DNA from: Mesorhizobium amorphae CCNWGS0123
Lineage (GTDB): Bacteria; Pseudomonadota; Alphaproteobacteria; Rhizobiales; Rhizobiaceae
Length of the DNA stretch: 64,000 nucleotides
Direction: 5' to 3'
NCBI RefSeq assembly: GCF_001686985.1
Contig: NZ_CP015318.1
Coordinates: 5,206,001 to 5,270,000, forward strand
Under the pieces are notes generated by a model. It had not been told where the DNA came from. It saw only the letters and a list, made by a program, of their open reading frames with translations, and searched no databases. Below are positions 3,988 through 45,023 of the stretch, piece by piece. Numbering within the stretch: position 1 is the stretch's first letter; each line of letters opens with the position of its first letter. The position numbers and the translations under genes are program-made.

Positions 3988-5607
3988 CTACCGCAACGCG
4001 TCTTGCAAGATCATCTCCGCTGCCTTCTCGGCTATCATGATGACCGGCGAATTGGTGTTGCCGGAGACGATGGTAGGCATGATCGAAGCGTCGGCGATGC
4101 GCAAGCCCGCAAGGCCGTGGACACGTAAGCGGTCGTCGACCACGGCCATCCTGCCCGCCCCCATCTTGCAGGTTCCGACCGGGTGAAAGATGGTCGTGGC
4201 GATGTCGCCCGCCTTGCGCACCAGATCATCGCGACTGGAGAATTGCGGTCCTGGCAACATCTCTTCCGGCGAAAAGCGAGCAATGGCCTTCGCCTTCATC
4301 AGCCGCCGCGCATGCTCGATCGAGGCCACTGCGATGCTGCGGTCGCCCTTCGTCGATAGATAATTGGGCCGGATCTTCGCGGGCTGTCGCGGGTCGCCAG
4401 TTGCCATGTGCACGGTACCCCTGCTCTCGGGGCGCAGATTGCAGACCGAGACGGTCACGGCCGGGAAACGATGCAACGGCTCGCCCAGTCGGTCGGTGCT
4501 GAGTGGCTGCACATGATATTCGAGGTCGGGCGTTGAGAGCCGTGGGTCGGAACGGGCGAAGATGCCGAGTTGGCTTGGCGCCATGGACAGCGGCCCGCTG
4601 CGCCACAGGGCATATTCGGCCCCCATCGCCGCGCGGCTGAGGAGATTGTGGTAGCGCTGGTTGAGGGTAACGGCGTTCTTGACCTTGAAGACCATGCGTA
4701 GCTGCAGATGGTCCTGCAGATTTTCGCCGACACCCGGCATGGCATGCCGGACCTGGATGCCAAGCTGCGACAGGAGTTCAGCCTGTCCGACGCCGGAGAG
4801 TTCCAAGAGCTTCGGCGAATTGATGGCGCCGGCGGCCAGAATGGTCTCGCGGGCGCTGGCGACATGCAGCGCACCGCCTTGACGGAAGACGACACCGGTG
4901 ACGCGGCGGCCATCGACCTCCAGCCGTTCGGTTTCGGCGCCGGTCAGGATACGAAGATTGGTGCGGCCCTTTATGCCACGCAGGAAGGCCTTGGAGGCGT
5001 TCCAGCGTACTCCCCTCCTCTGGTTGACCTCGAAATAGCCCGAGCCTTCATTTGTGCCCTGGTTGAAGTCTTCCGTGCGCGGGATTGCGAGCTCTTCGGC
5101 AGCATCGCGAAAAGCGTCGAGGATCGGCCAGGACAGCCGTTGCCGCTCGACACGCCACTCGCCGCCGGCGCCATGCATCGTGCTGGCGCCACCGTGATAA
5201 TCCTCCGACTTGCGGAAATAGGGCAACACGTCGTCCCAGCCCCATCCGGCATTGCCGGCCTGCCGCCAGCCATCATAGTCGGCAGCCTGGCCGCGCATAT
5301 AGATCATGCCGTTGATCGAGGAGCAGCCGCCAAGCACCTTGCCGCGTGGATAGTTGAGACTGCGTCCGTTCAACCCCAGGTCCGGCTCGGTCTTCATCAG
5401 CCAGTCGGTGCGGGGGTTGCCCATGCAATAAAGATAGCCGATCGGGATATCGATCCAATGATAGCGGTCGCTGCCGCCGGCTTCGAGGAGCAGGACTTTG
5501 TTTCGCGGGTCGGCGGAGAGCCGGTTGGCGAGCACGCAGCCCGCCGAACCGGCGCCGACGACGACATAGTCGAACTCACCGAAATCAGATGGACGAACGA
5601 CGGTCAC
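3988..5607 (-). CDS. GMC-family FAD oxidoreductase (choline dehydrogenase-like)
   Basis: About 539-residue glucose-methanol-choline oxidoreductase that oxidizes an alcohol with FAD. The ADP-binding fold is at the N-terminus ([16 protein letters not shown]), followed by the GMC signature around residue 75-90 ([15 protein letters not shown]). The C-terminal [10 protein letters not shown] and [19 protein letters not shown] segments carry the catalytic His and the last FAD contacts. I chose the GTG at 5607 because it overlaps the stop of the upstream kinase gene (GTGA); an upstream ATG at 5640 inside the kinase is possible. It is the last gene of a nine-gene minus-strand sugar operon, so its substrate is probably a polyol or sugar rather than choline (inference). 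Confidence 0.87.
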
Positions 5608-7115
5608 TGGAGAGCCTGTCGGCTGGCGATGCGTTCCCACATCGGGGCCATTGCCTCGTTGATCTGGCCATAGAGCTGGTAGCGTGCGGCATAGGCTGGG
5701 GCAAGCGCATCGTTCGGCGCATAGCGGCGCGCGGCCGAGGTCATCGCCATGGCACCGGCAGCGAAATCCGCGAAGACGCCGACGCCGGTACCTGCTGCAA
5801 TCGCCGCTCCCAGCGCGCCGGTTTCGCGGCTCTTCGCGACGGTGACCGGCACGCCAAGCACGTCGGCAAAAATTTGCGCCCAGACGCCGCTGCGTGAACC
5901 GCCGCCGGATAACACTGCTTCATCGAACCGCGCACCCGCCGCATGCAGCGTTTCGATATGACGCTTGTGTTCGAAGACAACGCCCTCGAACAGGGCACGC
6001 AGAATATGCGCCCGAGTATGCCAGCCGGCCATGCCATAAAAGCCGGCGCGAGCCTGGCCGTTCTTCTGTGAACCGTAGAGGAAGGGGTGGTAGATCGGGA
6101 TATCGCCGGTCGGATCTATGGACGCGACAAGGTCGCTGCACAGTTCGAACGGAGACTTTCCTTCCGGTACATGGTCGAGGAACTCGCGGACGATCCATTC
6201 CAGATTGGCGGCGGAAGTAGCGCTGGATTCAATCGCCAGATAGCGCTGCGGATCGAAGGTCGACAGCATGAAGATCGACGGCTCGCGGATCGGCTCGTCG
6301 GTGATGACCTGGTTGATGCTCCAGGTGCCGGCAATGATCGAAGCGGCACCCGTGCGGGTGACGCCGGACCCGATGGCGCTGGCCACGACGTCGAACAGGC
6401 CGGCCACGACGGGAGTGCCGGCGCGCAGGCCGGTGAGCGACGCGACATCGCGCGTGACATGGCCGGCAATCTCGGCCGATTCCAGGACCGGCGGCAGCAG
6501 GTCGGCGCAGTCACCAAGGCCATAGGCCTCGAGCAAGTCCTGCTCGTAGCGCCGTCCCGGCATCGACAGCAACCCGCAACCGGACATATCGGTGGCATCC
6601 GTGGAGCGCGCGCCGGTCAGTCGGTTGACGATAAGATCCTTGCACAAGAATGCCGTGCCGATGCGGCCGAACAGTTCCGGTTCGAACCGCTTCAGCCAGG
6701 CGAGCAAGGTCGGCGTCTGCGCGGCCCAGGGCTTTTGCAGGCAATACTTGTAGGTGCGGTCGCCGATACTACTCTTTGCCCATTCGCCGACCAGGCCGAC
6801 GGCGCGGGTGTCGAGCGACTGGATGCCGATCAGCGGCGCGCCCGCCCGGTCGAGTGCATAAAGGCCGTTGCCGTGCCCGGCGCAGCCGATCGCGACGATG
6901 TCGCCGGCGTCGATGCCAGCTTCAGCGATGCAGCGGCCGATCACTGTGACGGCGTTGCGCCACAGTTCACCAAGATCGCGCTCGACATGGCCGGGCTTCG
7001 GCATCGACGAATGCCCGTCGAGCGCCGCAAGCGCCAGTTCGCGTCCCGTCATGTCGAAGATTATGGCCTTGATGACCGTATTGCCCGCATCAAGGCCCAG
7101 AATGTAACCGCTCAT
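5604..7115 (-). CDS. FGGY-family carbohydrate kinase, L-xylulokinase-like
   Basis: 503-residue cytoplasmic ATP-dependent sugar kinase. The N-terminal [15 protein letters not shown] is the phosphate-1 loop of the FGGY fold, and [20 protein letters not shown] near residue 400 is the second FGGY signature. From memory, several blocks match E. coli Lyx[43 protein letters not shown] and [18 protein letters not shown]. The best guess is therefore a ketopentose, ketose or polyol kinase of the LyxK branch rather than a classical XylB. It is coupled to the GMC gene downstream by a 4-bp overlap and follows the aldolase gene by 21 bp. Exact substrate unknown. Confidence 0.87.
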
Positions 7116-7136
7116 CGGCTTCTCCCGCAGTCGGCC

Positions 7137-7979
7137 TTACGCCTGGTTGTACAGATCCCAGGCGGTGGCGCCATCGGCGCCGTCGTGAATGATCGCCATC
7201 AGGCCCCGCACGACGGCGCTCGGATTGGCGTGCTGATAGATGTTGCGGCCATAGACCATACCCAGTGCGCCTTGCGCCATTAGCGCCGCCGATTTGTCGA
7301 ACACAGCGTGCAGATCCTCCTTGCCGCCGCCGCGGACCAGCACCGGGCAGCGCGCCGCCTCGACCACGCGGTGGAAGTCGTTGGCGTCGGTCGTCGGGTC
7401 TGCCTTGATGACATCGGCGCCCATCTCGCGCGCCAGCCGCGTCAGCGTGACGATCTTCCCGGCGTCGCCGTCGACCATGTAGCCACCATGCTCGGCGACC
7501 GGCAGCATGGCCAGGGGTTCGATCATCAGCGGCATGCCGTACTTTTCACAGTCGGCGCGTACGCGGGCGATGTTCTGAACGCATTGGCGGAAGAGGTCCG
7601 GTTCGTCGGGCAGCATGAACAGGTTCACGACCACGCAGGCGGCATCCATTTCGATAGCGCCGATCAGCGGTTCGACCTCGTTTTGCAGCACCGCCCACAT
7701 CGCCCGGTGGCGCACCTTGTTGTACGGGTTGCCCATGTCGATGCGCATCACCAGTGCCGGCTTGTCCTTGCCGGGCAGGTTCTGCAGCAGGTCGGCCTGA
7801 CCGTAGTTCATCTGGATAGCATCCGGCCCGGCCTTCGCCAGTTTTTCGACCACGCCGGCCACGTCTTCCAACCCAACAAGGAAGCTCTGCTCGTTGCAGA
7901 CCCCATGATCGATGGCAACGTCGAGGCAGCGGCCGTTGCCGAACAGCCGGTTCATGCGGACTTTCTTGTTCACGCGCAT
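7137..7979 (-). CDS. DeoC/LacD/LsrF-type class I aldolase
   Basis: 280-residue TIM-barrel aldolase that would cleave a phosphorylated sugar by a Schiff-base mechanism. It shows the family hallmarks LDVAIDHGV near the N-terminus, the candidate Schiff-base lysine in MGADVIKADPTTD (about residue 193) and the phosphate-binding VLVRGGGKED and GALGMVYGRNIYQH blocks. It resembles LsrF and the archaeal-type fructose-bisphosphate aldolases more than classical FbaA. An AAGGAG ribosome site sits 7 bp before the ATG, inside the 3' end of the GlpD-like gene (10-bp overlap). With the kinase and the dehydrogenase it makes an oxidation-phosphorylation-cleavage route, but the order of steps is inferred. Confidence 0.85.
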   Translation of the reverse strand: MRVNKKVRMNRLFGNGRCLDVAIDHGVCNEQSFLVGLEDVAGVVEKLAKAGPDAIQMNYGQADLLQNLPGKDKPALVMRIDMGNPYNKVRHRAMWAVLQNEVEPLIGAIEMDAACVVVNLFMLPDEPDLFRQCVQNIARVRADCEKYGMPLMIEPLAMLPVAEHGGYMVDGDAGKIVTLTRLAREMGADVIKADPTTDANDFHRVVEAARCPVLVRGGGKEDLHAVFDKSAALMAQGALGMVYGRNIYQHANPSAVVRGLMAIIHDGADGATAWDLYNQA

Positions 7980-9688
7980 ATTGCGCTCCTTTTGTTGTTT
8001 TCGCCGGGGAGGTTCGGCAGAAGGACGCCGTGCTGATGCTCCAGCAGCGACAGAAAGGCGGTGCGTTCGGTATCAGCCTGAGCCGTGCTCCAGCCTTTGC
8101 AGATGGCCAGGATTGAAAGTACGGCATCGACCAGTTGGCATGTCAGGTCGCCTGCTATGGCTATGATGGTACGACGCAGGAAGATGTCGGCCAGCGACTC
8201 GACGTGCTCACGCTCGATGATCAGCCGGATTTCGCCGGTGGAATAATCCGCGCCGGGCAACATCGGGTCCGGCACGACCGAAATTGCCGCCGCGATTCCG
8301 CCCGCCGACGTGCCGTAGCGTTCCAGAAGAGTTTGCGCGCGCAGCATCGTCAATCCGTGTTCCGCCGCCAGCCTGGCACACCAGTCGGCGGGATCGGAAG
8401 GAAAATCGCGGCCCCCGCCGATGGCGAGATCCTCGGTACCGACCGTGCGTACCAGCCCCGATCGCTCCAGCGCCATGTCGGCTGCCAGCGCGCCAAACGA
8501 GCGAAACGTCGTCCACTTGCCGCCGATCATGCACAGCGTCGCCGGCAAATTGCCAACCGGCTCGACGAATTCGCAGAAATGGTCGCGCGGGATGCGGCCC
8601 GTGAAACTGTCCTTGCTGGCTGGCAACGGCCTGACGCCCGAGAACCGGAAGACGATCTCATGCCTGGCGATTTTGATCGATGGGAAGACAAAGGCCAGCG
8701 ACTGCAGGATGTACTGGAGTTCGTCGTCCTCGCAGCGCACGGTGTCAGGATCGTCGACGCGGATTTCGGTCGAGCCGATCAGAACCTTGCCGAGATAGGG
8801 AAACAGGATGCAGATGCGTCCATCCTCGTTCTCGTAATAGACCATGTTCGCACCAAGTGCGTCATGGAGCTCCTGGTTGTCGACGATCAGGTGCGAGCCT
8901 TTGGTGCCGCCCATCATGCGCGGTGCTGGCGCGCCGATCGCCTTGTTCGTCAGGTCGATCCAGCCGCCGGTGGCGTTGATGACGAGGCGCGGGCGCAGCG
9001 ACAGGGTCTCCCCCGAAACGGTATCGGTCAGCGCGAGGCCATCTTCGTCGGAGCCGATCCGCGCATAGTTGAGCGCACGCGCGGCGCGTGAAGCCGCCAT
9101 CGCGTCGTTCAGCATTTCAAGGCCAAGCCGCTCGGGTCGACTCACCCAGGCGTCGTAATAGGTCGCCGAACTACGGGTCGCCGGATTGATGGCCGGCCAC
9201 GTCTTCAGCGTTTCCTTGCGCCCTCGGAAGCGATGGGTCGGCATCAGCCGGCGCGATGCCGTGAAGACGTCATAGAGCGTCAGCCCGGCCTTGATGACGA
9301 GTGCGCCGCGCCGGCTCGGCCGCCGTGTGAGGCCGAGGAAGCGGACGGCGCCATTGGCGATGCCGGAGAAGATGTCGAAGATCGGCACCGTCGTCGGCAG
9401 CGGCGCGACGTAGTGCGGCGCATTCCGCAAGAGCCGGTCGCGTTCCCGCAGCGATTCCTTGACCAGCTTGAACTCGCCATTCTCCAGATAGCGCAGGCCG
9501 CCATGCACCATGCGCGAAAGCGCTGCGCTGGCGCCGCTGCAATAATCGCCCTTCTCGGCGAGCAGCACGTCGACGCCCTGCAGGGCAAGCTCGCGAAAGA
9601 CGCTGATGCCGTTGATGCCGCCGCCGATGATCAGCACGGCAATGTCGGGCCGCTCTCGCAGCGCGGCGAGTGTTTCGGTGCGCTTCAT
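7970..9688 (-). CDS. FAD-dependent glycerol-3-phosphate dehydrogenase-like (GlpD/EryB type) enzyme
   Basis: 572-residue flavoprotein of the GlpD family, which oxidizes a polyol phosphate and passes electrons to quinone. The Rossmann FAD site is IIGGGINGISVFRELALQG (about residues 20-38). The GlpD block CSGASAALSRMVHGGLRYLE follows, then KGSHLIVDN and FRFSGVRPL (substrate region). The C-terminal DUF-type helical domain of GlpD is present. Brucella EryB, an erythritol-phosphate dehydrogenase, belongs to the same family, and a polyol-phosphate role fits the kinase and aldolase in this operon. It ends 10 bp inside the aldolase gene. Confidence 0.86.
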   Translation of the reverse strand: MKRTETLAALRERPDIAVLIIGGGINGISVFRELALQGVDVLLAEKGDYCSGASAALSRMVHGGLRYLENGEFKLVKESLRERDRLLRNAPHYVAPLPTTVPIFDIFSGIANGAVRFLGLTRRPSRRGALVIKAGLTLYDVFTASRRLMPTHRFRGRKETLKTWPAINPATRSSATYYDAWVSRPERLGLEMLNDAMAASRAARALNYARIGSDEDGLALTDTVSGETLSLRPRLVINATGGWIDLTNKAIGAPAPRMMGGTKGSHLIVDNQELHDALGANMVYYENEDGRICILFPYLGKVLIGSTEIRVDDPDTVRCEDDELQYILQSLAFVFPSIKIARHEIVFRFSGVRPLPASKDSFTGRIPRDHFCEFVEPVGNLPATLCMIGGKWTTFRSFGALAADMALERSGLVRTVGTEDLAIGGGRDFPSDPADWCARLAAEHGLTMLRAQTLLERYGTSAGGIAAAISVVPDPMLPGADYSTGEIRLIIEREHVESLADIFLRRTIIAIAGDLTCQLVDAVLSILAICKGWSTAQADTERTAFLSLLEHQHGVLLPNLPGENNKRSAICA

Positions 9689-9708
9689 TGCGGAAATGCC
9701 TCGTTTGC

Positions 9709-10704
9709 TCAGGCAGCCATCTGGGAGAGATGCATGGCTATCGCTGTGTCGATGGCGGCCAGTTCATCGCGGCTGAGCCTGATCTCGCCGGCGCGCGCAT
9801 TGTCGAGCGCCTGATCGGCGTTGCGGGCGCCGCATAGCGCAAAGGTGATGCCTGGCTGCGCCAGCGTCCAGGCAATCACGATCTGGGCCATCGAGGCTTC
9901 GTGCCGTTCGGCGATCGGGCGGATGGCCTGCTTGAGCGCCGCCACCTTCTGCCGGTTCCCGGCCGAGAAGCGCGGATTGTCCTTGCGCTGGTCGTCGCCG
10001 GTGAAGCTGCGCCCCGGATCGACCGACCCGGTGAGCAGGCCGAGCGCCAGAGAGGAGTAGCTCAGTGTCGCCAAATCGTGCCTGCGCGTGATCGGCAACA
10101 GCGTGCCTTCGAGCTCGCGGTCGATCATCGAATAGCGTTCCTGGATGGCGTCAAGCTGCCCGGCGGCGACATAGTGCTCAAGGTCCCCGGTGCTGACATT
10201 GCTTGCGCCGATCGCCCTGATCTTGCCGGACGCCTTCAGCTTCTCCAATGCCGCAACCGTCTCGGCGATCGGCGTGGTCGGGTCCTGCCAGTGGGTGATG
10301 TAGAGGTCGATGTAGTCGGTGCCGAGCCGCTTCAGGCTCTGTTCCACCTCATAGGCGATGCCGTCGGCGCCGAGATAGCGGTGCACCGGCTTGTCGTCCT
10401 GGTCGAAGAAATGGTTGCCCTTGCCGGAATGCCAGTTCAGCCCGCATTTGGTGGCGATCACCACCTTGTCGCGCTTGCCCTTGATCGCCTTGCCAACGAT
10501 TTCCTCGCTGCGACCGAGGCCATAGGCAGGCGCGGTGTCGATCAGGCTGACGCCGGCGTCGATGGAGGCTTCGATGGCGCGGATCGAGGCTTGCTCGTCA
10601 GTGCCGCCCCACATCCAGCCGCCGATCGCCCAGGTGCCGAGACCTACGGCGGATGCCTGGATGCCGGACGCGCCGATCGCACGCAGGATTTGTTCTGAAC
10701 TCAT
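9709..10704 (-). CDS. Aldo/keto reductase
   Basis: 331-residue NADPH-dependent (alpha/beta)8 aldo/keto reductase. The catalytic tetrad is visible: Asp and Tyr in LIDTAPAYGLGRSEEIVGKA, Lys in KVVIATKCG and His in DLYITHWQDP. The start overlaps the stop of the SorC regulator gene by 4 bp (ATGA), which ties it to the sugar operon. Closest general types are the YajO/L-glyceraldehyde-3-phosphate reductase and pyridoxal reductase groups. It probably interconverts an aldose or ketose and its alcohol before phosphorylation (inference). Confidence 0.9.
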   Translation of the reverse strand: MSSEQILRAIGASGIQASAVGLGTWAIGGWMWGGTDEQASIRAIEASIDAGVSLIDTAPAYGLGRSEEIVGKAIKGKRDKVVIATKCGLNWHSGKGNHFFDQDDKPVHRYLGADGIAYEVEQSLKRLGTDYIDLYITHWQDPTTPIAETVAALEKLKASGKIRAIGASNVSTGDLEHYVAAGQLDAIQERYSMIDRELEGTLLPITRRHDLATLSYSSLALGLLTGSVDPGRSFTGDDQRKDNPRFSAGNRQKVAALKQAIRPIAERHEASMAQIVIAWTLAQPGITFALCGARNADQALDNARAGEIRLSRDELAAIDTAIAMHLSQMAA

Positions 10705-11681
10705 GCTGCCTCTCTTTCGGCAAGGTCGAGAATGCCAAGGCCGGTGGCCTCGTCGGTTACGATGATGTCGAGATGATTGCCGCGCATGGCGCTGAGGATC
10801 GGCGCGATCTTGCTCGGCCCGCTGGCGACGCCGATGGAGCGCGGAATGGTGGCGAATTCGTCAAGGGTGAGCGACACCAGCGAGCGGTTGAGCGAATAGT
10901 CGCTGAGCTTTCCGTTTCGGTCGATCAGGTGTGCCAGCAATTCGCCGGATGCGCCCGAACGTTCGATAGCCTGGCGGTCGGCGCTGGAGGAGGGATGCAG
11001 GTCGTAATAGCTGGAATCGTCGGTCAGGATAGAACCGACGCCGACCACGGCGACATCGGCCTCGCGCGCCCGGCGAAACACGTCCGCCACCGCGCGCACG
11101 CCCATCAGCATCTCGCGCTGTTCCGGCGTGTCGGCAAACAGCGGCGCATGGATCTGGTAGGCGCGGCCGCCCAGTCTGTCGGCCATCAGCGAGGCGACGT
11201 GATTGACGTCGGTGTAGTGTTTGCCCTGCACGAGCCCGGTCGCCGGAATGACTTCGACATCATAACCGCGGCCGGGCTTCAGCCCGGCGACCAGCGCGCT
11301 GACGCCTTTGCCGCCGGTAATCGAGATGGTGTCGCCGTCCTTGATCGTTTCGAGCAGGAGGTTGGCCGCCGCCTCGCCGACTCGCAGCAAGGCCGTCTGC
11401 GGGTTTTCCGACACCGTCGGCACCACGACCGCACGCTCGATGCCGCCGAGCCGCACCAGCCGCGCTTCGAGATCGACCAGATGGTCGATCGGCGACTTGA
11501 TCTTGATCTCGACCAGGCCGAGCTGGTGGCCGCGCTTGATCAAACGGTTGACTGTGGCGTGCGAGATGCCGAGTTCCCTGGCGATCTCGGCCTGCGTCTT
11601 GCCCTCCATGTAGTGGAGGACAAGCGCCTGATGCATCTGGCGGACGGTCGAGATGTCGTCGCGTGTGTTTGGGGGTGCCAT
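10701..11681 (-). CDS. SorC-family sugar-binding transcriptional regulator
   Basis: 326-residue regulator with an N-terminal helix-turn-helix (GKTQAEIARELGISHATVNRLIKRG, about residues 28-52) and a C-terminal SorC sugar-phosphate-binding domain containing ISITGGKGVSALVAGL and VVGVGSI. LsrR, DeoR of Bacillus and EryD belong to this group and respond to phosphorylated sugars. It lies between the permease gene (21-bp gap) and the aldo/keto reductase gene (4-bp overlap), so it is co-expressed with the pathway and probably autoregulated. A plausible operator is the AT-rich palindrome at 15504-15528. Confidence 0.9.
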   Translation of the reverse strand: MAPPNTRDDISTVRQMHQALVLHYMEGKTQAEIARELGISHATVNRLIKRGHQLGLVEIKIKSPIDHLVDLEARLVRLGGIERAVVVPTVSENPQTALLRVGEAAANLLLETIKDGDTISITGGKGVSALVAGLKPGRGYDVEVIPATGLVQGKHYTDVNHVASLMADRLGGRAYQIHAPLFADTPEQREMLMGVRAVADVFRRAREADVAVVGVGSILTDDSSYYDLHPSSSADRQAIERSGASGELLAHLIDRNGKLSDYSLNRSLVSLTLDEFATIPRSIGVASGPSKIAPILSAMRGNHLDIIVTDEATGLGILDLAEREAA

Positions 11682-11702
11682 GATCGCTCTATCGTCTCGA
11701 AC

Positions 11703-12689
11703 TCAGGACTTCTTGCGGTGCAGGAAGTGGTCGGCCGACACCGCAGCCAGGAGGATGCAGCCTTTGATCATGTCCTGCCAGTAGACGGAGATGTCGAGCA
11801 GGATCAGCGAACTGGTGACCACCGACAACAGCGCCATGCCGAGTATGGCGCCGAAGATCGTGCCCGAGCCGCCCTTGAGCGAGGCGCCGCCGATGACGGC
11901 CGCCGCGATCACGTTGAGCTCCATGCCGGCGCCGAAGGTCGGCGTGGCGGCGCCGAAGCGCGCCATGTAGATCACACCCGCGAAACCGGAGAGCGTCGCG
12001 CACAGCACCGTCACCCAGAACTTCACCTGGTTGGTCTTGATGCCGGAGAACTGCGCCGCCTTCTCGTTCGAGCCGGTGTAGAACACCTTGCGGAAGGCGG
12101 TGGCGCGCCGGAGCAGGAAATCGAAGATCGCCACCACGACCACGAAGATGATGATGACATAAGGCACGCCCTGGAGGTTGCCCTGGCCGATCGCCTTGAA
12201 TTCCGGCGGCAGCGTGAACAACGACAGTGGCGTACCCTTGGTGATGACCAGGCACAGGCCACGCACGATCACCATCGCCGCCAGCGAGGTGATGAAATGG
12301 TTCAGCCCCACGACCGTCACGAAGAAACCCATCACCGCGCCGATCAGCGCACTTACTGCGATGCCGATCAGGCTCGCAGTCCAGGGATCCAGCCCGGCCA
12401 GGAACAGCGCCCCCGAAACCACCATCGAGAAGCAGACGACCGAGCCTACCGACAGGTCGATGCCGCCGACGATCAGCAGGATGGTCATGCCGACGACGAC
12501 AATGCCCTCGATCGAGAAGCTCATCAGCATGGCTCGGAAGTTGCCCCAGGTGAGGAAATGCGGCGAGGCGAGGCTCATGGCGATGCAGAGCGCCAGGATG
12601 ATGACGATCAGGCCGGCTTCGCGCATCGAGGCGAACCGAGCGAAGCTGGCACGGCGGCTGGCATCCGCCACCTTGATCTCGGCATGCAT
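11703..12689 (-). CDS. RbsC-type sugar ABC transporter permease
   Basis: 328-residue inner-membrane permease of the CUT2 (ribose/galactoside) class. I start it at the ATG at 12689 (MHAEIKVADASRR), 16 bp after the ATPase stop; longer in-frame starts lie inside the ATPase gene. About eight to ten hydrophobic segments alternate through the chain, and the CUT2 motif GGIDLSVGSVV is near residue 80. GGASLKGGSGTIFGAILG near residue 270 is also typical of RbsC and XylH relatives. One permease gene is present, so the channel is presumably a homodimer. Confidence 0.9.
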   Translation of the reverse strand: MHAEIKVADASRRASFARFASMREAGLIVIILALCIAMSLASPHFLTWGNFRAMLMSFSIEGIVVVGMTILLIVGGIDLSVGSVVCFSMVVSGALFLAGLDPWTASLIGIAVSALIGAVMGFFVTVVGLNHFITSLAAMVIVRGLCLVITKGTPLSLFTLPPEFKAIGQGNLQGVPYVIIIFVVVVAIFDFLLRRATAFRKVFYTGSNEKAAQFSGIKTNQVKFWVTVLCATLSGFAGVIYMARFGAATPTFGAGMELNVIAAAVIGGASLKGGSGTIFGAILGMALLSVVTSSLILLDISVYWQDMIKGCILLAAVSADHFLHRKKS

Positions 12690-12705
12690 CGTGGTTTCTC
12701 CCGCG

Positions 12706-14247
12706 CTAGGCGACATTCTGGGCCTGCCCCTCATACACTGCGTTCGGTTGCACGCCGGAAGCCAGCATGATGATCGTTTCCTCGTTGAGTTGACCCGTTC
12801 CGAGCACGCCGGCGATGCGGCCTTCGCGCACCACAGCCACCCGGTCGCACAGACCGATGAGTTCGGGCAGTTCCGAGGAGATGACGATGATGCCGACGCC
12901 CCGGTTGGCGAGGTCTCGCAGCAGGCGATGAATCTCGACCTTGGCGCCGACATCGATGCCGCGCGTCGGCTCGTCCATGATGATGACCTTCGGTGCGACC
13001 GAAAGCTGCTTGGCAATCGCCACCTTCTGCTGGTTGCCGCCAGAAAGCGTCGATACAGCCGCATCGATGCCGGACATGCGCACGCCGAGTTGCCTGGCAA
13101 GGCTGGTCGCCTGATCTGCTTCGGCGCGGCGGTCGAGCAGGCCGAAACGGCCGGTAAGCTTGCCGAGGTCGAGTGCCGAAACATTGGCCGCGATCGACAG
13201 ATCGAGGAAGACGCCGGAACGCTTGCGATCTTCGGAGAGATAGACGAGACCAGCGCGCACGGCATCGGCATAGCTGCGGATCGCAAGGTTTTTTCCGTCG
13301 AGTACGACGCTGCCGGCGGTCGCAGGCCTCAGCCCGCAGATCGTCTGCGCGATCTCGCTGCGGCCAGCGCCGATGAGACCGCCGATGCCGAGAATTTCAC
13401 CAGTTCGCAATTCGAGATCGACATTGGCGAAACGGGTACCATCCGACAGGCCACTCACCGAGAGCAGTGCGCGGCCAGGCTTTGCGTCGGCGGGAAGCTT
13501 GTCGGGATAGAGCTGAGTGATCTCGCGGCCGACCATCTTGCGGACCACGTCGTTGGGCGACGTCGCCTCGATGGCCTCGGTCGCGACATAGCGACCGTCG
13601 CGGAAGACGGTGACGCGGTCGCACAGCGAAAAGATCTCGGCCATGCGATGGCTGATGTAGATGACGGAAATGCCGCGCTGCTTCAGCCCGCGCACGATTG
13701 CGAACAGGCGCTGCGCCTCGGTTTCGGTCAGTGCCGCGGTCGGCTCGTCGAGGATCAGCACCTTGCAGTCGAGCGTCAGCGCCTTGGCGATCTCGACCAG
13801 TTGCTGGCTGGAAATGGAAAGGTCCGCGACCTTGGTGCGCACCGCAATAGGCGCGAGCCGGTTCATCGCCTTCTCGGCGTCTGCATGGACCTGTTGGAAA
13901 TTCATCAGCGGCGCGCGCCGGGCGTTGATCGCCGCCATGCAGATGTTCTCGGCGACCGTCGCATCCTGGCAGAGCGCGATTTCCTGATGCACCAGCGCGA
14001 TGCCGATCTTCTGCGCCGCCGCGGGCGATGCGATCGTCACCGGCTTGCCGTCGATCAGGATGTCGCCCTCGTCTGGCTGCAGGATGCCGCCGATCATATT
14101 CATCAGCGTCGACTTGCCGGCGCCGTTCTCTCCGCACAGCGCATGGACCTCGCCGCGGCGCAGCTCGAACTGCACGCCACTCAGCGCATGGACCGGCCCG
14201 AACGCCTTGGAAAGGCTCCGGATCTGAAGGACGGGCGCGTCGCTCAC
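12706..14247 (-). CDS. RbsA-type sugar ABC transporter ATP-binding protein
   Basis: 513-residue double ATPase of the CUT2 class. The first domain has Walker A GENGAGKS, the signature region [14 protein letters not shown] and Walker [12 protein letters not shown]. The second has a degenerate Walker A ([10 protein letters not shown]), signature [15 protein letters not shown] and [12 protein letters not shown], the normal pattern for RbsA, MglA and XylG. I chose the GTG at 14247 because AGGAG lies 6 bp upstream and the longer frame adds a low-complexity stretch absent from the family. It sits between the binding-protein and permease genes. Confidence 0.9.
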
Positions 14248-14326
14248 GCCATGCTCCTGCGAAAAGAGTTCGGAAGGGGGCCGGAAGGGAAGACCCTTCC
14301 GGCTCTGATGTCGGTTCGGCTCGAGA

Positions 14327-15358
14327 CTACTCTTCGATGCCCTTGGTGCCACGCCGCTTGAGATACTTGTCCCAATAGAAATCGTCGGCGTTGTCCTTGG
14401 TCACGATCGAGAAGCCATTGTCGACGAACGGCACCTTCATCGCGTTGGCGCCGGCGCGCTTGGCGTCGTTCATCGGGTCGATCAGTTCGGGATGCTTGGC
14501 CAGCCACAGAAGCATGAAGCCCATATAGCCTTGCATGCCCTGGTTGGGGTTGACCGAGCCGAAGATCTCGCCGGCCTTGATCATGTCGAGGATCTTGGCG
14601 TTGACGTCGGCCAGCATGACCCTGATCTTGCCGCCACCTTCCTTGGCCGCTTGAGCCGCGCCGATCGCCGAATTGGCTTCCGGCATGAAGACGGCACCGA
14701 GATCGGGATGGGCCTGAGCGAGGCTGAGCACCGCCTGATAGGCCTTGGTCGGGTCCTGGTTGGACGCGGCGCGACCGACCAGCTTCATATCAGGCCATTT
14801 GGCTTCCATGCGGGTGACAAAGGCCGAGATTCGCTTGTCGTGATTGTCCTGGCCGGGGTTCTCGAGGACCGCATATTCGCCCTTGCCGCCCATCGCCTCG
14901 GCGACGGCGTCGGCGGCATAGGTGCCTTCGGCGACATTGTCGGAGGTGATGTAGGAGACACGCTTGGAATTGGGCGAGTCGGCGGCGAAAGTCACCACCG
15001 CGGTGCCGCCGTCGGTAGCGCGGTTGATCGGCTCGATAAACGGATCGGAATTCATCGGATGCACCAGGATGCCGGCCGGCTTCTGCGCCAGTGCCTGGTC
15101 GAAAGTGGCGATCTGTTTGTTCACGTCATATTCCGGCGTGCCGGTATATTCAGTCTCACAGCCGAACTGCTGCCCGGCCTGCTTGAACATTTCATAGACG
15201 GGGAACCAGTATTCGACGCCCGATACCATGACGTTCATGACATATTTTTCACCCGGCTCGCATTTGAACGGGTTGGCGGTTTCGGCGTAGGCCTGGGTCG
15301 AGACCAAGATGGTCGACGCGGCCGCCGCCATGGCGAGCGTGCTCAGAAATTTGCGCAA
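14327..15358 (-). CDS. RbsB-type periplasmic sugar-binding protein
   Basis: About 343-residue substrate-binding protein of the CUT2 importer. The predicted start is the TTG at 15358, preceded by AAGGGAGGA and followed by a Sec signal ([20 protein letters not shown], cleavage after AYA). An ATG at 15382 without a good ribosome site is the alternative. The type I periplasmic fold shows sugar-family blocks such as [20 protein letters not shown] and ALGAVF-like [18 protein letters not shown]. It is the first gene of the nine-gene operon running to 3988 and lies opposite the SerC-SerA fusion. Confidence 0.88.
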
Positions 15359-15826
15359 GATTCCTCCCTTGGCCGAAGCCATGCTCAATGACAATCGCGA
15401 ACGCCGCAGCGTCTCGCTGTCTGGATTGATTGACGCCGGACATCCTCCAGAAACCCGACGCTCCGACAATTACCGGCTTTTCCAACGCTGTCAATAAAAT
15501 TCACTATATGAAATATATTTCAATATAGCTGGCGTCATTGTTCAGCGGCTCCAATGCGCGCCTCAGACGCAGCGGCACGAGCAAGCGAGCGGCTCAACGG
15601 CGGTCTGTGCCCCGATACACCACAGATATCATGAGCCAGCGCCCTTTCCCGAGCACCGCTATCGAGGCCAAAAGACCGTCGCTCGCAGCCATGCGATGCC
15701 AGCAATCCCTCACTAAGGACGACCATGACGCATTCAGCGTGCGCTTCGGCGCAGTTAGCGTCTTTTTTCTTTCGCGTTCGATCCACTATCCGCCCCCCGC
15801 CCTGGAAAACGGATAGGCAGATCATC
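15359..15826. other. Divergent intergenic region, sugar operon / SerC-SerA fusion
   Basis: About 468 bp between two divergent genes. It contains an AT-rich interrupted palindrome at 15504-15528 and AT-rich DNA around it (AATAAAATTCACTATATG) that would suit promoters in both directions. An open frame runs through 15725-15826 ahead of the fusion protein, but it lacks a ribosome site and homology, so I treat it as leader. No gene is supported here. Confidence 0.5.
15504..15528. promoter_or_regulatory. AT-rich palindrome, candidate operator
   Basis: The inner 12 bases GAAATATATTTC are a perfect palindrome, flanked by CTATAT and ATATAG that pair with a one-base offset. It lies about 145 bp upstream of the RbsB-type start and about 300 bp upstream of the fusion gene. 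The SorC regulator encoded in the operon is the obvious candidate to bind it. This is inferred from symmetry and position only. Confidence 0.5.
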
Positions 15827-18799
15827 ATGAACATCGCGCAGATGCAGGAACAGCGACTGAAGGCACTCCAACTGACCGGATCGGGCGCGCCAAAATTGCC
15901 GTCGAACCCGTTCTTCGGTGTCGGCCCGATCACCGATGCGACCACCGATGAAGTGGACAGCCGCCTGCGGCGCATCGCCTTCGACGCCTGGATCGAGAAG
16001 ACCTATCGCAAGTTCGACGACAGGGGCAACGACATCGGTGGCTTCACCACCGCCGAGATTTCCCGCAGCATGCACCGCGGCTACCCGGCGGACAAAATCC
16101 TGACCGATATGATCCGGGCGATCCATCGCTATTTCCACTTCCCGAAGGCGAACCGCATGGCAGTGGGACTCGGCGGCGGCCATAGCGGCTTCACTGTCTG
16201 CGTCCAGCACCTGATGAACGCCAACGACGCCTCCCAACGCGTCTATGTCGATACGCCGCAGCCAGAGAGCGATCCGTCCAGGTCCGCCGGCTTCTTCCGC
16301 CAGTCCTGGGCCACACAACTGATCGAGATGCAGCGTTTCGCCGAAAAAGGCTGCGAGAGCCGCATTCATTTCGCCGTCTCCGAAGGCGTGATCCCGACAG
16401 CAGCCGAGCTCTCCGCCCTCGGCGTCTCGATCTTCGTCGGCGTCGGCCACGAGACGACGGGGGCAAATGCCTATACCAGTGCCGAGATCCACGAACTGCT
16501 GAGCTGGATAGACGGCGATCCGACCAACCGTCATGCGGTGTTCGATGCCACCTCAATGCTCGGTGCCATGCCGTGGGAGCCCGAACTCGTCGACGCCGTG
16601 ATGGCGAAGTGCTGCCTGTTCATGCCATTCCAGAAGGCGATCGGCGGGGTGTCAGGCTATTTTGTCGCCTCCTTCACGCCCCACGCACTGGCACTGATCG
16701 AGAAGAACCAGCAAAATCCCGCCTGGGCGATCCCGCGCCAGTTGAAGATCGCGCCGCCGATCGACCCCAAGCTACCGCTTTCGGCCAGGCGCTCCGTAGA
16801 TGCCGGGCCATTCTACGACGCCGCAGAAGACCGCATGCTCGGCGGCGTCATCAACACCTACAGCGCACTTGCCTTTGCCGAGACCACCTTCGGCCTTTTG
16901 CAGTCGGAGGCTCGGGTCGGCTCTGTCGTCGAGCTCAACCGCCGTTCCGCCACCAATCGCAAGGTGATCGACGAGTGGGTCAAGTCGCACCCGATGCTAT
17001 CGCTGACAGTCACCGATGCCGAACGGCGCGGCGCGGCGGTAACGCTCCTTAAGGTCGAGGACGACGGCATCACCGACCCCGGCATCCACGCCCGCATCAT
17101 CGCCCGGTCGAAACAGCTGCTCGGCTATGAGGGCATCACCCATCCGAATGGCGAATATGAGCCCGGCCTCGACGCGGCCCGCTACGTCAATGCCTTCCCG
17201 GGAACGCCAGGCGACTATCGTGCCTGGGTCGGGGGCATCCGCGAGCCCGAAGATATCGTCGCGCTGCTGGAGAACCTGCAATACGCCTATCTGCGCGCCA
17301 AGATCGTCGTTCTCGAAGAGGAACTGGCGAAGAACGGCGTGACCTTCGAGGCCCAGGCCAATTCAGGCGGCGGCGGCCGCAAGGACGACCCTGCGCGCGC
17401 CTATGCGGTGCTGATCGCCGATCTGGTCGGCCTGCGCTTCGGCGCCGACGGCCAGCCGGATCACAGCGAGATAAAGGCCTACATCGAAGAAAAGGGGGGC
17501 GTCTTCCATCTCGGACCGCTCGGCGAGCGGTCGGCGCTTGAGAAGGGCCGCATCCATTTCTACTACCAGCCCAATTTGAGTACCGAGGCGGAGATCCTTC
17601 CGCAGACCGACAAGGGCCAGTACGACGCGCTGATCGCGGCGGCGACCTTCATCCCGAAGGCCTCCGTGTTCCCGCTCGGCGGCGTGCGCATTGGCGCCGG
17701 CACCGGCAACATGGGCTCGGCCTCCTGGGGCGGCGGCAATGGCGAGGGCGGCGAAGCGCCGTTGATGAACACGCCAGGCATCAACAGCCGGGCAACCGCC
17801 CAGATGGCGATGAAGGCGATCCTGAGAGTCGTTCCTGATCTGCCGGTCGACAGGCTGCACCGGATGGTCGCCGGCGGCGACTTCGACACCGGCCGACAGC
17901 TCAAGGATTTTCCGACCGCCAAGCTCGAGGGCCGCAAGATCGCCGTTCTCGGCTACGGCAACATCGGCCGCGAAGTCGCCAAGCTGGCCAAGGCCTTCGG
18001 CATGAAGGTGACGATCTACGCCCGCGAGCATCACAAGCGCTGGATCGAGGGGGAAGGCTTCAAACATGCCGCAAATCCGATTGCCGCCGCAACCGGCGCC
18101 GACGTGCTCTCTGTCCATATCGGTCTCGGCCGCCTGGATGCGGCGAGAGGCGTCTATTCCAACGCCGGAACCGTCGATGCGAAGGTGCTCGACGTGATGA
18201 ACGACGGCGCGGTGCTGGTCAATTACGACCGGGGCGAGGTCGTCGATGCCGCCGCGCTCGACGAGGCACTGTCGTCCGGCAAGATCGCGCATGCAGCGAT
18301 CGACGCCGATCTCTTCAAAGACGCCGCGACCGGCAGACTCAGCGGACCGATGCTTCCTTACCTGCCGCTCGAAGAGCGCCATAAGGGCAGGCTGGAGCTG
18401 CTGCCGCACGCCGCCGCAGACACCGACCATCCCTCCCGGGTAACCGGTGCGAAGCAGGCAGTCGACCAGGTCTTCGACGTCATCCGTTTCAAGTCGGTCA
18501 CCAATCTCAAAGGCGATCTGCCGGAAGGTTATGTGTCAGCCGGCAGCCGCACCCCCGGCGGCATCGGTAAAGTGACGAAGCAGGTGGTTGCTGAAGTCCG
18601 CGGCAAGGCGAAGCTCCTGGACGAACTGCGGCAGGCTTCGGAAAAGGTCGCGGCGATCCTTGGGGCACTTTCCTCCGTTTCCGATCCGGATCATCGCGAC
18701 CGGATCATAGATCGCTACACCGGGCTGCTTGTCGAAAGCGCCGGCCGGCAACGGGCTCTGCTCGACCAGTTCGGCCTCTACGGGCCGGCGGAGGACTGA
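15827..18799 (+). CDS. SerC-SerA fusion: aminotransferase plus 2-hydroxyacid dehydrogenase
   Basis: 990-residue protein that appears to join two steps of one pathway. Residues about 15-520 are a fold-type-I PLP aminotransferase of the SerC group, with the presumed PLP lysine Lys270 in FMPFQKAIGGVSGYF. Residues about 640-890 are a D-2-hydroxyacid dehydrogenase with the NAD site AVLGYGNIGREVAKLAKAFG (first Gly of the motif near 709), Arg802 in NYDRGEVVD and a His861 in LLPHAAADTD. The usual catalytic Glu region reads AAIDADLF and looks altered. SerA then SerC make phosphoserine from 3-phosphoglycerate; PdxB and SerC/PdxF make 4-phosphohydroxythreonine in pyridoxal phosphate synthesis. Either pair of steps fits. 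The ATG at 15827 is the start of homology. It is not a simple fusion of the housekeeping enzymes, since the dehydrogenase half is quite divergent. Confidence 0.8.
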   Translation: MNIAQMQEQRLKALQLTGSGAPKLPSNPFFGVGPITDATTDEVDSRLRRIAFDAWIEKTYRKFDDRGNDIGGFTTAEISRSMHRGYPADKILTDMIRAIHRYFHFPKANRMAVGLGGGHSGFTVCVQHLMNANDASQRVYVDTPQPESDPSRSAGFFRQSWATQLIEMQRFAEKGCESRIHFAVSEGVIPTAAELSALGVSIFVGVGHETTGANAYTSAEIHELLSWIDGDPTNRHAVFDATSMLGAMPWEPELVDAVMAKCCLFMPFQKAIGGVSGYFVASFTPHALALIEKNQQNPAWAIPRQLKIAPPIDPKLPLSARRSVDAGPFYDAAEDRMLGGVINTYSALAFAETTFGLLQSEARVGSVVELNRRSATNRKVIDEWVKSHPMLSLTVTDAERRGAAVTLLKVEDDGITDPGIHARIIARSKQLLGYEGITHPNGEYEPGLDAARYVNAFPGTPGDYRAWVGGIREPEDIVALLENLQYAYLRAKIVVLEEELAKNGVTFEAQANSGGGGRKDDPARAYAVLIADLVGLRFGADGQPDHSEIKAYIEEKGGVFHLGPLGERSALEKGRIHFYYQPNLSTEAEILPQTDKGQYDALIAAATFIPKASVFPLGGVRIGAGTGNMGSASWGGGNGEGGEAPLMNTPGINSRATAQMAMKAILRVVPDLPVDRLHRMVAGGDFDTGRQLKDFPTAKLEGRKIAVLGYGNIGREVAKLAKAFGMKVTIYAREHHKRWIEGEGFKHAANPIAAATGADVLSVHIGLGRLDAARGVYSNAGTVDAKVLDVMNDGAVLVNYDRGEVVDAAALDEALSSGKIAHAAIDADLFKDAATGRLSGPMLPYLPLEERHKGRLELLPHAAADTDHPSRVTGAKQAVDQVFDVIRFKSVTNLKGDLPEGYVSAGSRTPGGIGKVTKQVVAEVRGKAKLLDELRQASEKVAAILGALSSVSDPDHRDRIIDRYTGLLVESAGRQRALLDQFGLYGPAED

Positions 18800-43982: not shown

Positions 43983-45023
43983 CTACTGCTTGAGCGAGGT
44001 CGAAGTGCCCCAGGTGTCGGACAGCACGTAACCTTGGGGATACGGATCCGTGGGATCGAGATAATAGCTGTGCTCGCCGGTGATCCAGGCTCGTCCGGTG
44101 ATCTCCGGAACGATCGCCTTGCGGGCGCCGATCTCCGTCAGCTCCACAATCCTGCCTGTGAAACGGGAGCCGATGATCGATTCATGGATCAACACATCGC
44201 CCACTCCCATCAGGCCGCGGGCTTGCAGCACGGCCATGCGGGCCGATGTGCCGGTTCCGGTCGGGCTGCGATCGGAGCGTCCGGGCGAGACGATGCAGGT
44301 GTTGCGGGTGACGTTGCCCGGACCCTGGAACGGCATGGCGAACTGCACGATCGACACGCCGCGCACATGGTCGAATTCCGGATGGACGACATCGAGCTGT
44401 TCGCGCGCGGCCCGTCGGACCTTCTCGCCCACCACGGCCAGTTCGCGAGCCTCGTCAGGGGCGACCGAGAAGCCGAGCGCCTTGGCATCGACAATCGCGT
44501 AGAACATGCCGCCATAGGCGATATCGACCGTGAGCGCGCCGAGCCCCTCGACCTCGATGTTGGCATCCAGGCGATCGACAAAGGCAGGCGCGTTGCGGAA
44601 GGTGATCGAGACGCATTTGCCGTCGCGGCATTCGGCGCGCACTTCGATGACGCCACCCGGCATGTCGAGCTTGAAGCGCGTCTCGGGCTCCTGCATCGGC
44701 ACCATGCCAGTCTCGAGCAGCACCGTGGCAACGCAGATCGTGTTGGACCCGGACATCGGCGGATACTCGGTCGGCTCCATGATGATGGCGCCCGCGGCGC
44801 AATCCTCGCGCGTCGACGGAACCAGGAGATTGACGTGCCGCGCAACACTGCCGCGTGGCTCGCAGATCAGCATCCGCCTTACATGGTCGTGATCACGTTC
44901 CATCGTGATCATCTTTTCCATCATGGTGCGGCCCGCCGGCGGCAGGACGCCACCGACGATGACGTCGCCGACTTCGCCTTCGGCGTGACAGCCGACGACA
45001 CGAATAGAGGCTTTGGTGCGCAT
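43983..45023 (-). CDS. Proline racemase-family enzyme, probable trans-3-hydroxyproline dehydratase type
   Basis: 346-residue member of the same superfamily as the enzyme at 1746. At the first catalytic position the sequence is MSGSNTIC, so Ser91 replaces the usual Cys. At the second it is DRSPTGTGTSA, so Thr255 replaces Cys. Thr at the second site is the mark of trans-3-hydroxy-L-proline dehydratases, which make pyrroline-2-carboxylate; those I recall keep Cys at the first site, so the Ser-Thr pair is less common. GAGGGAGC lies 5 bp before the ATG. An aldehyde dehydrogenase fragment ends 23 bp upstream on the same strand. The C-terminus is duplicated at 41564-41840. Confidence 0.85.
   Translation of the reverse strand: MRTKASIRVVGCHAEGEVGDVIVGGVLPPAGRTMMEKMITMERDHDHVRRMLICEPRGSVARHVNLLVPSTREDCAAGAIIMEPTEYPPMSGSNTICVATVLLETGMVPMQEPETRFKLDMPGGVIEVRAECRDGKCVSITFRNAPAFVDRLDANIEVEGLGALTVDIAYGGMFYAIVDAKALGFSVAPDEARELAVVGEKVRRAAREQLDVVHPEFDHVRGVSIVQFAMPFQGPGNVTRNTCIVSPGRSDRSPTGTGTSARMAVLQARGLMGVGDVLIHESIIGSRFTGRIVELTEIGARKAIVPEITGRAWITGEHSYYLDPTDPYPQGYVLSDTWGTSTSLKQ

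Follow-up and report, generated by a model that had tools for sequence, protein, structure and literature searches.

A SerC-like aminotransferase fused to a D-2-hydroxyacid dehydrogenase in rhizobia and their relatives, a candidate enzyme for the conversion of serine to D-glycerate

Which reactions are carried out by a protein that joins an aminotransferase to a hydroxyacid dehydrogenase? This question is raised by a gene of Mesorhizobium amorphae CCNWGS0123, located on the forward strand at 15827-18799 of a 64,000-nucleotide stretch of contig NZ_CP015318.1 (positions 5,206,001 to 5,270,000), hereafter called the window. The gene is a single open frame of 990 codons without internal stop. In an earlier reading of the letters alone (the sequence-only reading), it had been proposed that a SerC-type pyridoxal 5'-phosphate (PLP) domain is followed in this protein by a SerA/PdxB-type NAD domain. 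We report here that the gene encodes a SerC-like class V aminotransferase (AT) fused to a D-2-hydroxyacid dehydrogenase (DH), and that the fusion is conserved, as are its PLP-lysine and the Arg and His positions of its predicted active sites. From the conserved residues and the neighbouring genes we infer the substrates, direction, cofactor and possible channelling, and we tentatively propose that the enzyme converts serine, through hydroxypyruvate, to D-glycerate.

Results

One gene encodes both halves

The AT half (residues 1-505, 15827-17341) was assigned to class V and to the SerC-like enzymes by family profiles, alignment and predicted fold, and the DH half (residues 519-990, 17381-18796) to the D-2-hydroxyacid dehydrogenase fold by Pfam, fold search and alignment. 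They are joined by a variable linker at about residues 501-525 (17327-17401), where alignment columns vary and the per-residue confidence of the predicted model (pLDDT) is low (504-520). An alternative, longer start exists at the ATG at 15725; 15827 is the likelier one, since the frame upstream of it is stopped in several close orthologues. The full-length model had a pLDDT of 78.0 and a predicted TM-score (pTM) of 0.55, and because several conserved loops were at low pLDDT, no geometry was drawn from the models. Profiles and predicted folds agree with the two domains seen in the sequence-only reading. The residues that it had picked out (K270, GYGNIG at 709-714, R802, H861 and AAIDADLF at 823-830) were all correct.

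We considered the possibility that a sequencing error had removed a stop between two ordinary genes, as the same reading had allowed for. The genomes of GTDB species were scanned with the AT half, which yielded 190 relatives; the locus counts given below rest on the best 80 of these, so that AT genes that are unfused or more remote may have been missed. Among these 80 Alphaproteobacterial loci, 79 had both halves in one frame, some being clipped by contig ends, and 31 plasmid records spanned at least 80% of the query protein in one place. An artefact or lost stop is therefore ruled out. In addition, nucleotide differences fell mostly at codon position 3 in both halves in four pairwise comparisons. 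The remaining locus, L104 of a metagenome-assembled genome (3581-6506), had the AT half alone, with an amidase gene directly 3' of it. The closest of the 80 relatives was from M. amorphae CCBAU 01570 (99% identity over the AT half); named hosts included Mesorhizobium, Rhizobium, Sinorhizobium/Ensifer, Shinella, Paracoccus, Labrys, Chelativorans, Kiloniella and Aestuariispira. Annotated plasmid orthologues are labelled 'NAD(P)-dependent oxidoreductase' by NCBI.

The distribution of the fusion is sparse. It was found in 4 of the 398 genomes of a phylum sample and, at full strength, in 3 of the 385 genomes of a class sample, the host genome being counted in both; four weak matches in the class sample (42-50 bits) covered the C-terminal part of the profile only and resembled ordinary SerC-type genes. 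Among 61 genomes (the host and 60 relatives, threshold E 1e-60), the fusion was present in 7 and a standalone DH half in 14, two genomes having both. The standalone open frames comprised 476-656 codons. In a tree of DH halves, the 13 standalone rows formed two groups; with its very long outgroup branch, this tree is compatible with either order of fusion and fission.

Standalone DH genes in Mesorhizobium relatives (L015-L028) and on Shinella and Sinorhizobium plasmids (L031, L037, L038, L039) were about 59-68% identical to the fused half. Near them stood genes of the M20 family or, as judged by eye, aromatic-amino-acid-lyase-like or DadA-like genes, and in L031 there was a phn operon nearby. 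An Ensifer adhaerens plasmid copy (L032, 10001-11749), annotated as a 'hypothetical protein' and about 582 residues long, consists of the AT half and the start of the DH half and is apparently truncated.

The aminotransferase half retains the residues of SerC

The phosphoserine transaminase model PRK03080 matched residues 226-492 (E 1.1e-14). The scores of the AT half were nevertheless far below the curated cut-offs for SerC (38.6 vs 448.2 bits for TIGR01365 and 54.2 vs 477 bits for PRK03080), and in a profile search of the host genome the fusion had a SerC-family score of 40.8 bits. A profile of the AT family gave no match among PDB sequences at E 0.001, whereas the fold search did: the predicted AT half (pLDDT 84.5) was nearest to Mycobacterium tuberculosis SerC (2fyf/3vom; Z 27.5, root-mean-square deviation 3.1, 356-357 residues aligned), and alanine:glyoxylate transaminases ranked next (Z 25.6).

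Nine residues of this half never varied in 33 aligned fusions, namely H83, R84, W161, D240, Q269, K270, N343, T344 and R465. K270 (16634-16636) lies opposite the lysine of the Gln-Lys pair of the host's SerC and is the predicted Schiff-base lysine, and H83-R84 (16073-16078) lie opposite its His-Arg pair. R465 (17219-17221) aligns with a C-terminal Arg of SerC and is probably the binder of the alpha-carboxylate; it would correspond to R335 of E. coli SerC, which binds this group of the substrate (PMC9309667). Like SerC, the AT half thus has the class V fold and retains the Gln-Lys, Asp-Ala-Thr-Ser, Asn-Thr, His-Arg and C-terminal Arg positions; unlike SerC, it extends over about 505 residues with insertions, and it reaches only 38.6-54.2 bits where the SerC models require 448-477.

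The dehydrogenase half lacks the usual glutamate

Phosphoglycerate dehydrogenase (PGDH) models of NCBIfam matched residues 645-826 (E 5.8e-20) and 647-892 (E 1.2e-19), and the Pfam domain 2-Hacid_dh_C was found at residues 676-826 (E 1e-25). Here too the scores fell short of the curated cut-offs, namely those for PGDH (TIGR01327, 70.5 vs 454 bits), PdxB (53.2 vs 434 and 31.9 vs 687 bits), GhrB (38 vs 492 bits) and GhrA (26.1 vs 403 bits). With the full model, the 50 fold matches listed for this half were D-2-hydroxyacid dehydrogenase folds with Z-scores of 24.1-26.0, and included 2-hydroxyglutarate, lactate and phosphoglycerate dehydrogenases.

The Rossmann dinucleotide motif GYGNIG (709-714, 17951-17968) was invariant in the 33 fusions, as were R802 (18230-18232) and H861 (18407-18409), the catalytic Arg and His by alignment. 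Position 831 (18317-18319), opposite a SerA residue that we take to be the catalytic Glu, had no E in any of the 33 rows, its occupants being K, V, T, M, R, Q, S, F or I. The Arg-Glu-His set of SerA is therefore incomplete in the fusion, and the divergence that the sequence-only reading had noticed in this region is borne out. One of two SerA arginines that are presumably on the substrate side also appears to be replaced: in an alignment with the host's SerA (hhalign), invariant R621 (17687-17689) falls opposite one of them and A604, which is A, T or V among the 33 rows, opposite the other. In human PHGDH, active-site loops include Arg54-Val59 and Ala76-Val83 (PMC7097917).

Invariant A732-R733 (18020-18025) closes the second Rossmann strand of the fusions, where the host's SerA has Asp-Pro. 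Replacement of this Asp by Ala-Arg is, by rules that we assume to hold here, a sign of NADP(H) preference; the sequence thus suggests NADP(H) as the cofactor, which in turn would favour the direction of reduction in the cell. The half ends with a helical extension (residues 907-990, 18545-18796) recognized from the secondary structure of the model, the aligned range of most listed fold matches ending near residue 900. Compared with SerA and other D-2-hydroxyacid dehydrogenases (TIGR01327, GhrB and others), the DH half shares the fold, the GxGxxG motif, the catalytic Arg and His and, as aligned, one of the two SerA Arg positions; it differs by the lack of the catalytic Glu and of the other Arg, by a Gly-rich loop at about 623-642 and by its C-terminal helices.

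The missing Glu, together with the presence of CtBP structures among the top matches, raised the possibility that the DH half is no normal enzyme but has a sensing or regulatory role towards the transaminase; CtBP proteins employ the fold in this way. We consider such a role very improbable, since none of the 33 fusions departs from the dinucleotide motif or from the catalytic Arg and His and since the half also occurs on its own in 14 of the 61 genomes.

The fusion is unlikely to serve housekeeping serine synthesis

In the host genome, a serC of the normal kind (743.9 bits, above the cut-off) adjoins a gene for a 533-residue SerA (locus L006). As both genes are present elsewhere in the genome, the fusion can be set aside as the housekeeping serA/serC, and the housekeeping activity that the sequence-only reading had envisaged as a trivial explanation is unlikely.

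This also bears on the possibility of a classical SerA-SerC or PdxB-SerC fusion, in which 3-phosphoglycerate or 4-phosphoerythronate would be oxidized, aminated and channelled. The nearest families of both halves belong to that pathway, the His-Arg pair of SerC is kept, R621 lies opposite a substrate-side Arg of SerA, and in one locus (L098) a HisN-like phosphatase gene (234.6 vs 275 bits) begins at the stop codon of the fusion. Moreover, a predicted oomycete protein joins the enzymes that open the serine synthesis pathway, those of its first and second steps (PMC2705460). Yet the second SerA Arg position is A, V or T604, the catalytic Glu is absent, Ala-Arg replaces the acidic NAD residue, the scores are far under the PGDH, PdxB and SerC cut-offs, the host has its own serC-serA pair, and the domain order is opposite to that of the oomycete protein. 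We therefore regard a classical fusion as improbable.

Neighbouring genes hint at small acids in some loci and at other amino acids elsewhere

To identify genes that accompany the fusion, 121 proteins from 36 loci were assigned to families (117 of 137 chosen by script and 4 picked by hand, the rest being dropped mostly as short); the gene calls were our own, some of them wrong, and the tally was made without a control set. No family accompanied most copies of the fusion in this tally, and none matched more than 5 proteins. Three links looked informative.

The first is a glycerate 2-kinase homologue, intact or decayed, which lay behind the fusion in 7 of the 80 loci and on one plasmid (L033). 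In L057 an intact homologue begins 3 bases past the stop of the fusion; it scored 226 bits against NF041176, below the cut-off of 550, and shares 70% identity with a host gene that passes the DUF4147 cut-off. Decayed copies were found within about 100 bases of the fusion end in L042, L046, L047, L049, L060, L080 and L033. The second link is a malate-CoA ligase operon, searched for in flanks of up to 8 kb, with the fusion downstream of it in 8 of the 80 loci (L042, L044, L047, L049, L051, L052, L085, L087) and on a further plasmid (L036). In Sinorhizobium this operon encodes a BhcA-like class V transaminase (601 vs 650 bits), a CitE-type lyase, malate-CoA ligase beta (725 bits, cut-off 604), the alpha subunit of a succinate/malate-CoA ligase, and a transporter of the BCCT type (640.6 vs 650 bits with the glycine-betaine model). 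Between L042 and L085, a 6.7 kb upstream run is 87.7% identical in DNA, whereas the fusions themselves are 71% identical and stand in different well-supported branches of the tree. It looks as if one fusion had taken over the position of the other, and this suggests a function tied to the operon.

Third, other loci had folD within 1.5 kb of the fusion (L084, L086) or, in Paracoccus aminovorans, a gene of DAO+FAO_M+GCV_T architecture upstream, which we take to be of the dimethylglycine or sarcosine demethylation type. Taken together, the kinase, the malate-CoA ligase operon and the folD and demethylase-type neighbours suggest a role in C2/C3 and one-carbon metabolism.

A different amino acid, with an anionic side chain (e.g. 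glutamate, aspartate or one derived from hydroxyproline), would be converted to the matching D-2-hydroxyacid if the fusion served amino-acid or amide catabolism. H83-R84, invariant in the 33 fusions, would suit this, and so would several neighbours: M20 peptidases (L086, L110, L112, L114, L117), an amidase that immediately follows the complete fusion in L092 and L093 and belongs to the same family as the one after the AT-only gene of L104, an FMN-dependent hydroxyacid dehydrogenase in L105, and a trans-3-hydroxy-L-proline dehydratase-like gene upstream in L098 (447.5 vs 550 bits), L122 and L123. In these last three loci the fusion is clustered (4315-11770 in L098) with the dehydratase-like gene and with genes for a DapA-family protein, an aldehyde dehydrogenase and a phosphatase of the HisN-like kind. 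However, none of these contexts is common to most loci, and those with glycerate kinase and malate-CoA ligase point towards C2/C3 acids. Such a substrate is possible, though on balance doubtful.

The divergent sugar operon and other features of the window

The sequence-only reading had looked for the substrate in the operon that is adjacent to and divergent from the fusion in the window. At 3988-15469 on the reverse strand lies a sugar-type cluster with GMC oxidoreductase, FGGY kinase, DeoC/LacD-type aldolase, glycerol-3-phosphate-dehydrogenase-like and aldo/keto reductase genes, an LsrR/DeoR-like regulator and a ribose-type ABC transporter. When flanks of about 8 kb were compared among the loci collected, just two close Mesorhizobium loci, M. 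amorphae L040 and M. waimense L041, had close homologues (more than 60% identical) of the operon's binding protein and ATPase next to the fusion in the same arrangement; in L049 such homologues were arranged differently. A general link is thereby ruled out, and that the fusion handles an intermediate of this operon is scarcely credible despite their adjacency.

An element at 15726-15753 (forward strand), near position -100 relative to the gene, recurs in M. amorphae and M. waimense as well as upstream of several Sinorhizobium/Ensifer orthologues and had a single site in the host genome at up to 3 mismatches. This suggests a control site of the fusion gene's own, but relatedness alone could also explain its conservation. 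The element starts beside the ATG of a short 'MTHSA...' frame that ends differently in relatives; an ATG-started frame of the 'MTHSA(C)' kind near -105 was found in 21 of 82 loci listed, as well as in the window. As it ends variably (MTHSA, MTHSAC, 15 residues) or reads on, no leader peptide is claimed. No Rfam match for a riboswitch was found at E 1 in 15400-16000, and promoter-like and terminator-like sites were no commoner than in shuffled sequences (1 vs 0.9 and 2 vs 4.4, respectively). Elsewhere in the window, 25 kb from the fusion, a proline racemase family gene (43983-45023, reverse strand) is 53% identical to the trans-3-hydroxyproline dehydratase-like neighbour in L098.

Discussion

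We tentatively favour the view that the fusion turns serine into D-glycerate. In the SerC-like half, an amino acid, most likely L-serine, would donate its amino group to a keto acid and so become hydroxypyruvate, which the DH half would reduce to D-glycerate, probably with NADPH. D-glycerate could then enter central metabolism as phosphoglycerate through glycerate 2-kinase. The reason for the fusion might be that the reduction pulls the transamination, with or without channelling. Counted in favour of serine are the loss of one SerA Arg (A/V/T604), the Ala-Arg at 732-733, and the glycerate kinase, operon, folD and demethylase-type neighbours. As the proposed route leads from an amino acid to an oxoacid and on to a hydroxyacid, the order of the domains follows that of the reactions; the sequence-only reading had called this order reversed, but it is the correct one if the route holds. 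Its idea that enzymes of plausibly consecutive steps have been joined is supported, as is its suspicion that the true substrate may differ from those of SerA and PdxB, the DH half being divergent at the Glu position. Less can be kept of the phosphohydroxy-oxoacid that it had suggested as the intermediate: A604 and the glycerate 2-kinase neighbour in one clade weaken this idea, while the retention of R621 still speaks for it.

Several observations weigh against serine as the substrate. The conserved H83-R84 pair fits an anionic side chain better, unless the partner it serves is glutamate/2-oxoglutarate; the second of the SerA Arg positions is retained as R621; and the catalytic Glu of the DH half is missing. 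The kinase link looks as though it arose once, in the ancestor of a single clade, and of the 8 loci that show it, 7 have it in decayed form. As to the malate-CoA ligase operon, it already contains a class V transaminase in Sinorhizobium, AraC-type genes stand between it and the fusion in L044, L047, L051 and L052, and neither the operon nor the kinase is found in the flanks of most loci. Finally, the contexts with M20 peptidase, amidase or trans-3-hydroxyproline dehydratase-like genes suit another amino acid. It is because of the decayed kinase link, the transaminase of the operon, the other contexts, the His-Arg pair and R621 that we put serine forward only tentatively, keep another substrate as a possibility of lower weight and still grant a small chance to a classical fusion.

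A broader proposal would be that the fusion is a serine-to-D-glycerate module, in which a hydroxypyruvate reductase that lacks the Glu is joined to a SerC-derived serine transaminase, and that it has a part in glycine-betaine and one-carbon metabolism of rhizobia and relatives, replaces the two separate enzymes and is exchanged among bacteria as a ready-made unit. In this full form, we consider it rather unlikely. If serine is indeed the substrate, a function would be assigned to a 990-residue family so far labelled just as an oxidoreductase, a route from serine to glycerate would be contained in one protein, and a natural fused transaminase-reductase would be at hand for studies of channelling and for the production of D-hydroxyacids. 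How much of the catalytic triad is needed could also be tested on a D-2-hydroxyacid dehydrogenase that lacks the usual Glu.

How does the fusion compare with known systems? Both of its parts are of known kinds, and no paper naming this bacterial fusion was found in the open-access literature searched, in which this architecture with a Glu-less dehydrogenase is an undescribed variant. Fusing these two kinds of enzymes is not new in principle, since a predicted phosphoglycerate dehydrogenase/phosphoserine aminotransferase of oomycetes (Ps142688, Pr80380), covering the first two steps of serine synthesis, has been published; its dehydrogenase half is said to cluster with those of metazoans (PMC2705460). 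That protein likewise combines a dehydrogenase and a transaminase of the same two kinds, but with the dehydrogenase N-terminal and the transaminase C-terminal, opposite to the rhizobial protein. The serC-serA pair of the host has the same order as the halves of the fusion, serC coming first, but consists of ordinary housekeeping genes very distant from it in sequence. In the serine cycle, hydroxypyruvate reductase and serine transaminase are encoded by separate genes. The rhizobial protein would share with this pair the two reactions proposed here and the glycerate-kinase neighbour, and differs from it in that the enzymes are fused and the transaminase half is SerC-like.

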